A DNA stretch of 59,765 bases, from NCBI GenBank assembly GCA_947448135.1, contig CANFLZ010000012.1:1-59765 (forward strand), given 5' to 3'. Under the pieces are notes generated by a model that saw nothing but the letters and a program-made list of their open reading frames with translations, did not search any database and had not been told where the DNA came from. Each line of letters starts with the position of its first letter. Position 1 is the stretch's first letter. The DNA comes from Flavobacteriales bacterium (lineage in GTDB: Bacteria > Bacteroidota > Bacteroidia > Flavobacteriales_D > Sanyastnellaceae). Made by a program: the position numbers and the translations under genes. Positions 37,378-43,544 of this stretch are shown one piece after another.

Positions 37378-37989
37378 TCAAGGAATTAGCTCTTCTAAGC
37401 CAGTCCAATTCGGTATGGAGGGCGATTGCCTTTTCGAAAGTTCAAGATCAATTTCTTCGAGTAAGAAATTCATTCGGCCATAATTGCATGGCGCGCAAGC
37501 GATGATCATGTTTTCTAATGTTGTCTTCCCTCCTCTAGCATGTGGAATGATGTGATCAAATTGTAGCCACATAGCTTGAAAAGCAGCGTGTTGATCGGAA
37601 TTGGTTTTTCCCCAAGGTAGTTCCAAAGGATATTGGTGATTCAATAAAGTGCGTATTTCTTTTCTCACGACTGGTATTCCGCAAAATCTGCAAAAATGGC
37701 CATCCCTTTCAATTAACTCACGTTCTAAATTTTTATTCGGCATCCTTTTAGGATCTCTTGATTTGGGATCTACAGTACTGGGTGTGCCAAGCTTTTTCTG
37801 TAGTTGATAATAGATGCCGTCTTTCCCCCACAAAGATTCCGTCCAATCACGAATTTTATTGTCATTGACAAGGGTCAATTTTTTTTTGACTTCGCTGTGA
37901 TTCCCAATATGATGTTCTTCAGCAGCTTTGATTAAAATTTCAGCAGCTTTGAAAATCTCTATGGGCGGGACTAAAAGACAATTTTTCAA
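37378..37989 (-). CDS. HNH endonuclease
   Basis: The 203-residue protein has a helical N-terminal half of unknown function and a C-terminal HNH nuclease. Zinc ligands are CRFCG (about 107-111) and CAPCN (about 167-171); the active site is FDHIIPHARGGKTTLENMI, with DH, the HARGG loop and Asn in the expected places. The only plausible start is TTG (37989), since the first internal ATG would remove the N-terminal half; this start is uncertain. It lies 16 bases after the GCS-like gene on the same strand, so it is likely the last gene of that small operon. It could act in DNA defence or be a mobile-nuclease remnant. Confidence 0.85.
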   Translation of the reverse strand: MKNCLLVPPIEIFKAAEILIKAAEEHHIGNHSEVKKKLTLVNDNKIRDWTESLWGKDGIYYQLQKKLGTPSTVDPKSRDPKRMPNKNLERELIERDGHFCRFCGIPVVRKEIRTLLNHQYPLELPWGKTNSDQHAAFQAMWLQFDHIIPHARGGKTTLENMIIACAPCNYGRMNFLLEEIDLELSKRQSPSIPNWTGLEELIP

Positions 37990-38005
37990 TTTATGAAAAT
38001 AAAAA

Positions 38006-39493
38006 TCAAATACTCTCCAGCTGCTTCAAATGCTGCTCTTGTTGGTGCAAATTGAAATTATCCCATATCGGTGATTCGGTGGGTACTTCTCCCATCAAAG
38101 CTTCTAAATAGAGGTGATCGTTTTGGTGGAGGGCATGCAAACGCGCGAGTATGCCAAAGAAGAATTCATCCAGTCTGACGCAGCCTGCCCATTCATTGGG
38201 TAATCCTTCTGTCGTTTGATCGATCAATTGCAAAGCAGCCAATATTTCTAATTTTTCGTCATCGGAAATTTCTGTGCTATACCCATCGCGAAGGGCTCTA
38301 AATACCAAGTTGTTCCAAACGATACTGTCATGCGCCCATTGCACGCTGCTGAACGTTTTGGAGTGCTCGCAAATTAAAACGATGGCATGCAATACAGCGG
38401 GTAAATGTTCGGCCGGGAATTCATCAAAGCTTCTGAACTCAAATCCACTTTGATACAATTTTTCTCGATTGAAATCCAAACCCAAGTCGGTGAGCAACTC
38501 ATAGGATAGCTCACTCTCTACTTGATCTCGCCACCAGATATTCTCTTCTTTGGAGAACTTCAATAATTTTCTAAATTCTTCAACGGGATAGGTCAAGATT
38601 TTACCCTTGGCCATGGACTGGTGATAGGTGCCTACTCCTGTATATCGTGACATGGCATTGCGCATGGAACCTGCCGCAAACTTTTCCTTCAAGTTGTTCT
38701 CATTGCTGATAATGGCCATGATGTCCGGACTTCCTAATGAGGCGATGAACAGTGGTTCAAACCATTGAAGTAAGTAGATGGCGTTGTTGTGCGCTTTGTC
38801 AAAAGCATCGTAATCGATGATTCTGCTGTCTTCTGTTAGCGTGGGCAATGTGAAATGGAAGTGTAAAGTGCCGTTGTTAAATAAGACCAAGTTCTTTTGA
38901 TTGGACATGAACATGTTGATCCCAATGTTGTATTCAGGAAATGTCAAAGGCCCTGGGAGAATTTTGGTCTCGTTTAATCGTTCCAAGAAAATTTTCTTGT
39001 TCACACGCATTTCATTGCAAGCTTCTTGGACGGTTCGATTTTCAAAGTATTTCGTGACAAATTCAATGGTGTCACCATCAAAAATGATACAACCCATCGG
39101 ATTGTTTTTTTGTGTGAACATGCTTTGAATGTGATACGGCTGTTTTTCTAAAAATAGCTCCAGTATTGATTTTCCTGCATAGTCTGGGTTATCCAATAAT
39201 GGTGGTGCCGATTGTATGGTCTTGTGTTGAAAGTGAATGTCTAACTTTTCAAGTGAGTGACTATTCATCATTTGACTGACGAGATAGTTTTTGCTGGAAT
39301 CAAAGGCGGCGCTCAATAGGGTTTCCAAAGTCCCTGCTTTGTAACATTTGAGATAATCGATGCTATAGCGCTCACGCCCCATTTTCTCTTGGATGAATTG
39401 CCCAGATACGATCAAAGACTCCTCGAATTGAAGATATGTTTCGTTTTCTAACCCAATGCCCCAGTACAATTTTCTTATCGGGTTATGTTCCAT
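38006..39493 (-). CDS. Predicted glutamate-cysteine-ligase-fold (carboxylate-amine ligase) protein
   Basis: No close family is recognised with certainty. The ATG at 39493 yields 495 residues starting at MEHNPIRKLYWGIGLENET; the upstream extension overlaps the neighbouring gene. Several motifs fit the glutamine-synthetase/GCS fold: an ExE pair (E16, E18) on a first strand, LHFHFTLPTL (about 210-219), LGSPD (253-257), SRYTGVGTYH (282-291) and FEFRSFDEF (351-359). In GCS these correspond in order to the metal-binding Glu pair, substrate strand, GSPD loop, turn and ERxxD strand. Since the organism appears to make bacillithiol, glutathione synthesis is unlikely; it may join another amine to a carboxylate. 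The fold assignment is inference. Confidence 0.55.
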   Translation of the reverse strand: MEHNPIRKLYWGIGLENETYLQFEESLIVSGQFIQEKMGRERYSIDYLKCYKAGTLETLLSAAFDSSKNYLVSQMMNSHSLEKLDIHFQHKTIQSAPPLLDNPDYAGKSILELFLEKQPYHIQSMFTQKNNPMGCIIFDGDTIEFVTKYFENRTVQEACNEMRVNKKIFLERLNETKILPGPLTFPEYNIGINMFMSNQKNLVLFNNGTLHFHFTLPTLTEDSRIIDYDAFDKAHNNAIYLLQWFEPLFIASLGSPDIMAIISNENNLKEKFAAGSMRNAMSRYTGVGTYHQSMAKGKILTYPVEEFRKLLKFSKEENIWWRDQVESELSYELLTDLGLDFNREKLYQSGFEFRSFDEFPAEHLPAVLHAIVLICEHSKTFSSVQWAHDSIVWNNLVFRALRDGYSTEISDDEKLEILAALQLIDQTTEGLPNEWAGCVRLDEFFFGILARLHALHQNDHLYLEALMGEVPTESPIWDNFNLHQQEQHLKQLESI

Positions 39494-39534
39494 GTTTTTG
39501 TGAATTTTTGAATGTTGCAAAGTTGTTATAAATA

Positions 39535-40236
39535 TCAATCGTGGTAATAAAAAACATGTGATGAGTAGCGAGGATGATTCCACCAATCTCGTCTTATACG
39601 AGCAAAGTAATTGTAGTTTAATTTCCCTGCTTGTGATTGCAATGGATAAATGACTTTACCATCTTCTCGAAAAGCTTTTTTCTTTTCTGTCTCGGGAACG
39701 ATGGGTACGATATGTCCAGAAAGGCCGACAATTTTTCTTTTTGCGCAAATGATTCCAACGCCTCCTTCTTCCGTTACTTTTTCTTGAAGTTTTGTGAGGT
39801 CTGTCATCCGATTCCAACCGTAACATTCACCCCATTTTAAAAACCAATCGTGGATGGCACTCGAATAAATCGGCATGACGGTTTCGTTAAAAATGGGTTG
39901 GACGTCCTCGCCTTTTTCAAGACGCTCAATGGCCTCATCAGTCCACCAAACTGTCGGTAAGTATACATTGCAATGAAAGCAATAGTCAAATGAATAGACA
40001 TTGCAATAGGTGTCTTCTGGCGTGCGCTGATAACGGGTGCTGTATTTGACATTGAGTTTCTTGATCAATCGTCGAATGCTTTTCCGTTTCGATTCAGCGG
40101 TAGACATATTGCGAAACGGGATGCTGTCATCTTGCATGGGATGAAATTTCCTTTCGTATGATTCCAAATTAGAATCACTATGTGGTGCTAAAATCGCAGG
40201 CTTTACGGCTTTGGTTTTGGGGATAACATCGTTCAT
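39535..40236 (-). CDS. Predicted papain/NlpC-P60-like hydrolase, partner of the GCS-like protein
   Basis: Not recognised as a named family. The 233-residue cytoplasmic-looking protein (no signal peptide) has a basic, disordered first 60 residues and a conserved-looking core. Candidate catalytic residues are Cys78 in TYCNVYSFDYC and His175 in LSGHIVPIVPE, with Gln200 or Gln202 in PLQSQAG as the third. This C...H...Q order matches NlpC/P60 and related papain-like amidases or peptidases. A motif DWFLKWGECYGW suggests an aromatic substrate or wall-fragment groove. It is first in an operon with the GCS-like ligase (41-base gap) and an HNH nuclease. Activity is inference. Confidence 0.5.
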   Translation of the reverse strand: MNDVIPKTKAVKPAILAPHSDSNLESYERKFHPMQDDSIPFRNMSTAESKRKSIRRLIKKLNVKYSTRYQRTPEDTYCNVYSFDYCFHCNVYLPTVWWTDEAIERLEKGEDVQPIFNETVMPIYSSAIHDWFLKWGECYGWNRMTDLTKLQEKVTEEGGVGIICAKRKIVGLSGHIVPIVPETEKKKAFREDGKVIYPLQSQAGKLNYNYFARIRRDWWNHPRYSSHVFYYHD

Positions 40237-42866: not shown

Positions 42867-43544
42867 TTAAAATCCGTAAAAGATCAATCTATCTTGATAT
42901 TGGCCTTGTTTGATTCTCCAAATTACAACATAACTACCAGCACCATCTCCATTTAACATGTAAATGTACAGGATTTGATTTTGTTCGTCGTAATGGGCGG
43001 CTGTTGAAGCAAGGTTGGGATTGTATAAATTCAATAGTGCAGATGAAGGAAGCACTATGTTTTTTCCATTCAAGGATATTTCCATTTTGTTGAATTCTTC
43101 TTGCGGAATATTCCCGTCGGTTCCCCAATACGGTTGGTCATCAATGTATAGTAGTCCTTGATCGGAATATTGCAAAGAATGGTTGGACTGAATGAAATCT
43201 TTTTCCTCAATTACGATGGAGATATTCTGATTAAAGATTTGAGCCTCCTTGCCATCGAAATTGATCAACGGAATTTGGGTGTAGTTTTCGATTGGCTCAA
43301 TCTGAGAGCAAGGAATAAAACCGTTTCGTATTTCATTTTCTTTTTCGTAATCGACGTTCATCCAATGGGCATTCTTTTCAAAGCAAAAAACGATTTGTTG
43401 ATTCGAAAGTGAGTCGATTACAGAGGATTGCTTTTGCGGCTCCTCATAGACAGCGCAATATACGGTCGAACTTTTTACCACAGCGAATTGCGCCAACGAA
43501 AATTGAGCACAAATGCAGCCAAGAACAATCAAAACGAATTTCAT
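42867..43544 (-). CDS. Exported protein with N-terminal SH3-like domain, function unknown
   Basis: A 225-residue protein with a signal peptide (MKFVLIVLGCICAQFSLAQ). The start of the mature part, including YCAVYEEPQKQSSVIDSL, resembles a bacterial SH3b fold, as in proteins that bind wall or peptide ligands. The C-terminal 120 residues (pattern Y.DD.PYWGTDG, then YIYMLNGDGAGSYVVIWRIK) are not recognised. It precedes mgtA by 10 bases, so the two are co-expressed, though a functional tie to Mg transport is not evident. Divergent from uvrD. Confidence 0.7.
   Translation of the reverse strand: MKFVLIVLGCICAQFSLAQFAVVKSSTVYCAVYEEPQKQSSVIDSLSNQQIVFCFEKNAHWMNVDYEKENEIRNGFIPCSQIEPIENYTQIPLINFDGKEAQIFNQNISIVIEEKDFIQSNHSLQYSDQGLLYIDDQPYWGTDGNIPQEEFNKMEISLNGKNIVLPSSALLNLYNPNLASTAAHYDEQNQILYIYMLNGDGAGSYVVIWRIKQGQYQDRLIFYGF

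Follow-up and report, generated by a model that had tools for sequence, protein, structure and literature searches.

The window (the whole stretch of DNA analysed here, 59,765 nucleotides) encodes a predicted hydrolase, HYD, and a predicted ligase, GCSL, whose genes are an obligate two-gene unit that is inherited together. With confidence evenly balanced for and against, we propose that the two proteins constitute an obligate two-enzyme system that makes and cuts an amide bond in a single peptide, either peptidoglycan-like or γ-glutamyl. The genes are separated by 41 bases, and a gap of 16 bases separates GCSL from a third ORF on the same strand. This arrangement is present in the window as the first-pass annotation described it:

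39535..40236, minus strand: HYD, predicted papain-like (Tae1/CHAP-like) amidase or peptidase; 233 aa, Cys78 and His175, without a signal peptide
38006..39493, minus strand: GCSL, predicted ATP-dependent carboxylate-amine ligase of the glutamine-synthetase/GCS fold; 495 aa, ATG at 39493; motifs E16xE18, H211xH213 and E352xR354x2D357
37378..37989, minus strand: HNH endonuclease ORF, TTG start; a neighbour only, not conserved with HYD-GCSL

Conservation of the HYD-GCSL pair

Within one Flavobacteriaceae genus, GCSL is encoded in 42 of 199 genomes and HYD in the same 42, neither gene occurring alone. The genes are collinear (HYD first) in 35 of these genomes, convergent in six, and split by 334 kb in one (G725). 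Agreement of this kind has a chance of ~10^-43 under independent placement, before allowing for relatedness, a value that overstates the pairing because the 199 genomes are related. The pair is kept despite the convergent inversion in six genomes and the 334 kb split, and thus the link cannot be attributed to mere proximity or operon structure. When 100 related genomes were searched with each protein, the same 15 were found to carry HYD and GCSL, adjacent to one another. A scan of 84,980 species genomes returned 141 ligase relatives, of which 80 were kept; together with three more, these provide 83 further loci. HYD adjoins GCSL in 82 of them, and at the single exception the sequence ends 246 bases upstream of GCSL. 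Genes flanking the pair vary between genomes. No third gene is common to the pair loci, the next most frequent neighbour being present at 16 of 85.

The HNH gene beside the pair is incidental. It was not found at any of the 15 relatives' loci or the 83 further pair loci, and it is absent from the other 61 of the 62 relative genomes searched, so that only the window's own genome has it. The domain itself is confidently identified (PF01844, E 3e-9, above the Pfam cut-off), as had been annotated. The HNH genes most similar to it are carried by unrelated plasmids and phages. Thus, the three-gene operon was rejected: only HYD and GCSL form the conserved unit, and the nuclease, absent beside the pair in relatives, is not part of the system in which it had been suggested as a possible effector. 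A Fic-like ORF is located directly downstream of GCSL in genomes of the window's genus (L043:6888-7442, L044:6929-7477 and L045:4441-4995), and is not conserved outside that genus. Two genes upstream of the pair, at window positions 42867-43544 (minus strand), is a gene whose product has an N-terminus resembling a signal peptide and looks SH3b-like; it matches no family above cut-off.

Trees of HYD and of GCSL both split the collinear from the convergent type. Support for the split is 100/100 on the ligase tree and 100/96 for the convergent group on the hydrolase tree; the ligase tree resolves little of the branching within the collinear group. In G725, HYD (L155:5701-6495) and GCSL (L154:5835-7379) are at separate loci. 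The HYD gene of this genome, with no ligase alongside, adjoins the GNAT-type gene found next to convergent pairs of other species. Its position suggests that the collinear and convergent pair types have exchanged places.

In Flavobacterium, HYD and GCSL are separated by a gap of ~430 bases (L093:5574-6000 and other loci), which contains no ORF and has no Rfam match. The candidate of a hidden third gene was therefore rejected. The gap aligns as moderately conserved, non-coding DNA and holds a Bacteroidetes-type promoter-like element (TTG...TAnTTTTGC). Possibly, it is a long leader of the ligase mRNA.

Predicted folds and relatives of the two proteins

HYD and GCSL have no Pfam match at E-values up to 10, and no NCBIfam or PADLOC match at E-values up to 1. 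The GCS2 (PF04107) and Amidoligase_2 (PF12224) profiles do not match GCSL at E-values up to 10, sequence searches of Pfam and PDB with this protein found nothing, and its PHROG matches are weak only. Alignment of GCSL with GCS2 and Amidoligase_2 using hhalign gave no signal, and the positive control was likewise without signal.

The fold of GCSL was predicted using AlphaFold2 (best model pLDDT 67.6 and pTM 0.75; the remaining four score near 52). The top Foldseek match of the model is YbdK, with poor E-values. In VIA-align 2, all 11 reported entries are glutamine-synthetase/GCS-class ligases or Dop. The best of these is 1tt4, with a Z-score of 12.4 over 270 residues, followed by YbdK (12.2), GshAB (11.5), Dop (9.9), PafA (9.5), plant glutamate-cysteine ligase (9.2), GshA (7.8) and glutamine synthetases (5.7-7.0).

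Members of the carboxylate-amine/ammonia ligase superfamily, which have the glutamine-synthetase (GS) fold, share the signatures Ex[EH] in core strand 1, [HD]x[NH] in strand 4 and Ex[RK]x2D in strand 6 (PMC2588565). Two arginines, one in strand 5 and one in the preceding loop, are further features (PMC2588565). All three signatures can be recognized in an alignment of 37 GCSL sequences. E16-N17-E18 (Ex[EH]) is invariant, as are the E, R and D of E352-F-R354-S-F-D357 (Ex[RK]x2D), whereas position 213 of H211x[H/N]213 ([HD]x[NH]) is H in 31 sequences and N in six. The three motifs occur in order in 87 of 99 GCSL ORFs, and all 489 other proteins encoded at these loci lack the ordered set. Also invariant are D139, D141 and E144, in a part of the model with pLDDT <50, and R278 and R283, for which strand assignment in the model is weak. 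These five residues are candidates for the remaining superfamily features. The motifs and the predicted structure, which is of modest confidence, support the prediction that GCSL has the glutamine-synthetase fold and acts as a carboxylate-amine ligase, and so back the GCS-type fold originally suggested.

The Cys/His assignment made for HYD in the first-pass annotation is well founded: Cys78 and His175 do not vary across an alignment of 40 paired homologues, and all five distant relatives have them too. In the HYD model, which is of moderate quality (pLDDT 77), C78 is at the start of a helix (residues 77-88) and H175 at the start of a strand (175-179). This order, cysteine and then histidine, is the papain-like arrangement and supports the papain/NlpC-type reading. 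Profiles for NlpC/P60, CHAP and DUF2272 (Tae1) do not match HYD, and two of its relatives have weak matches below cut-off to Peptidase_C39_2. The closest solved fold is that of Tae1/Tse1, an effector with peptidoglycan amidase activity (Foldseek E 0.015; VIA Z 7.0 over 89 residues, 3.1 Å), with pseudomurein endoisopeptidase PeiR (Z 4.3) and Gsp amidase (Z 3.6) lower. No fold match of HYD has E <0.001 or Z >=8, and a Z near 7 can reflect a common arrangement. C78 is poorly placed in the VIA alignment because this covers mainly residues 97-233. The likeness to Tae1/Tse1 is suggestive rather than conclusive. The synonymous distance between the window and L055 is saturated for HYD, and hence dN/dS was not used.

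The context of HYD relatives is stronger evidence than the fold match. Five distant relatives were identified (blastp E 1e-39 to 1e-43 in a search of a small set), and all five keep the [TF][YF]CN, GH and SQAG motifs. One is fused to endolysin-type GH19 and SH3b domains and adjoins an Amidase_2 gene, and another has a significant SH3_3 domain; in the remainder, SH3_3 matches are weaker or the N-terminal region looks lysozyme-like by eye. The paired HYD of the convergent type also retains an SH3_3 domain. Given these lysin-type domains, we conclude that the HYD domain most likely derives from a family that cuts peptidoglycan peptides. Two unannotated proteins, L151:4816-6498 (on an Azospirillum plasmid) and L147:3255-5006, combine a lysozyme-like N-terminal region, an SH3-like middle and a HYD domain, and are candidate new lysins. 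GCSL was not detected in the three genomes and two plasmid records that hold distant HYD relatives.

No hydrophobic signal or membrane segment was identified in 79 HYD and 80 GCSL proteins, and thus both are probably cytoplasmic. SH3b domains are usually found on enzymes that contact the cell wall, and their presence is a poor fit with a cytoplasmic HYD.

A proposed two-enzyme system and its rivals

An amide-forming ligase and an amide-cutting hydrolase, neither of which was seen alone in the surveyed genomes, suggest action on one bond or one peptide pool. In the proposed system, GCSL would activate a carboxylate at the expense of ATP and join it to an amine; enzymes of this superfamily usually act on the γ-carboxylate of a glutamate. 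HYD, as a cysteine amidase or endopeptidase of the kind that cuts stem peptides, would cleave such an amide bond. The pair may in this way recycle or edit a γ-glutamyl peptide or one derived from peptidoglycan. It could do so by cutting the peptide and then re-ligating it, or by adding, and later removing, an amide-linked group, much as glutathionylspermidine synthetase/amidase does in a single protein. The peptide pool could be cell-wall precursors, recycled muropeptides or a γ-glutamyl metabolite. We infer catalytic activity, a common substrate, the peptidoglycan-like character of that substrate and the direction of flow. A narrower version, which we advance only tentatively, is that in Bacteroidota a GS-fold amide ligase works with a cysteine amidase of lysin origin to edit the peptide of recycled muropeptides or of peptidoglycan precursors. 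Against the strictest form of the coupling, five HYD-domain relatives occur without a detected GCSL.

The main rival of this proposal, somewhat unlikely in our estimation, is that the pair serves as a weapon with self-protection. HYD, released by lysis or secretion, would cut cell walls, and GCSL would modify the peptidoglycan precursors of the producer. By analogy with the lysostaphin immunity factor, GCSL might add an amine or amino acid to these precursors. Lysostaphin is a cell-wall peptidase whose gene is inherited along with that of an enzyme altering the wall peptide, the immunity factor; unlike HYD and GCSL, however, lysostaphin is an exported metallopeptidase and its immunity factor a FemAB-type transferase. 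Lysin modules among the HYD relatives, the SH3b domain in one paired HYD type and Tae1, a type VI secretion system (T6SS) effector, as the closest solved fold of HYD are all consistent with an attack on walls. So too are the patchy spread within one genus (42 of 199 genomes) and the fact that paired-type HYD was never found without GCSL. However, lysin-type HYD relatives exist without GCSL, neither protein has a hydrophobic export signal, and immunity genes often persist as orphans, yet no GCSL without HYD was seen. Nor is a T6SS sheath gene (PF05591) present in any of the nine genomes that bear the pair, out of 62 relatives tested, although this model may miss divergent sheaths; a link to T6SS was rejected for this reason.

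The first-pass annotation had suggested a peptide or amide tag that is made and removed, or a defence-type system. The making and removal of an amide-linked group is possible, but the HYD relatives favour cell-wall peptides over a protein tag. A form of tagging like pupylation, with GCSL attaching a peptide or glutamate to proteins and HYD removing it, is improbable: the GCSL model aligns also with the pupylation enzymes Dop and PafA, but neither a small gene for a tag nor any other third gene is conserved beside the pair, and HYD relatives are lysin modules rather than deconjugases. We regard as scarcely credible a defence system of three genes in which the HNH nuclease acts as effector, a reading that would draw on the 16-base gap, the shared strand and the genuine HNH domain. 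The nuclease is missing from all related loci and the other relatives searched, its own kin are in unrelated plasmids and phages, and HYD and GCSL lack any PADLOC match. Defence also finds no backing from the pair itself, which has no known defence profile in PADLOC and whose neighbours vary between loci. HYD has no match in phage records, and its two plasmid relatives are without a ligase in those records. A viral or plasmid origin of the pair was rejected, as no GCSL relative was found in viral contigs or plasmids.

Likeness to known systems, distribution and significance

Coupling of an amide ligase to an amidase is of a known kind. Glutathionylspermidine synthetase/amidase likewise unites an ATP-dependent amide ligase with a papain-like amidase, and Gsp amidase is among the weaker structural matches of HYD. 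Unlike the pair, it is a single fused protein, it is found in different organisms, and its ligase part is not known to be of the GS/GCS fold. GCSL shares its fold, and the order of ExE, Hx[HN] and ExRx2D, with YbdK/GCS2, GshA, GshAB, PafA, Dop and Amidoligase_2. It differs from these ligases in having no Pfam GCS2 or Amidoligase_2 match, in its spacing, GxGxENE instead of GhExE, in being larger (~495 aa) and in always being paired with HYD. For HYD the best structural match is with Tae1/Tse1 (alongside NlpC/P60 and CHAP), with Cys at a helix start and His at a strand start. In contrast to Tae1/Tse1, HYD has no Pfam match, is ~100 residues longer and has a ligase partner instead of an immunity protein, and the tested pair-bearing relatives have no T6SS sheath gene. 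The HYD and GCSL families, their pairing and its strictness appear to be undescribed. Our literature search found no paper on the pair; the 2009 amidoligase survey by Iyer and colleagues was outside its reach and may mention the families.

Carriers are restricted to Bacteroidota in the 80 relatives kept from the 141 of the species-genome scan. The strict association of hydrolase and ligase anticipated at the outset is thus observed, but its expected spread across many phyla is not. Transfer to Gammaproteobacteria was considered for one record, 'Glaciecola amylolytica' (L075, CP034120.1), and rejected, as this record looks like Bacteroidota. It encodes 18 PorP-family proteins of the type IX secretion system (T9SS) over cut-off, and a neighbour gene is 97% identical to one in a Flavobacteriales genome. 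On these grounds CP034120.1 is probably a misnamed Bacteroidota genome.

The significance of the pair is that two families without Pfam or NCBIfam models are locked together in presence and absence even when unlinked, which is a strong functional clue. Many species of Flavobacterium carry the pair, among them several named strains in culture, in which knock-outs should be possible. The pairing makes the cell-wall and γ-glutamyl ideas both directly testable. If the substrate is a cell-wall peptide, the pair would represent a new peptidoglycan modification or recycling step, and if lysin-derived editing is correct, a new modification of the cell wall served by a dedicated hydrolase. If instead the substrate is a small γ-glutamyl peptide, these bacteria would have a new metabolite pathway.
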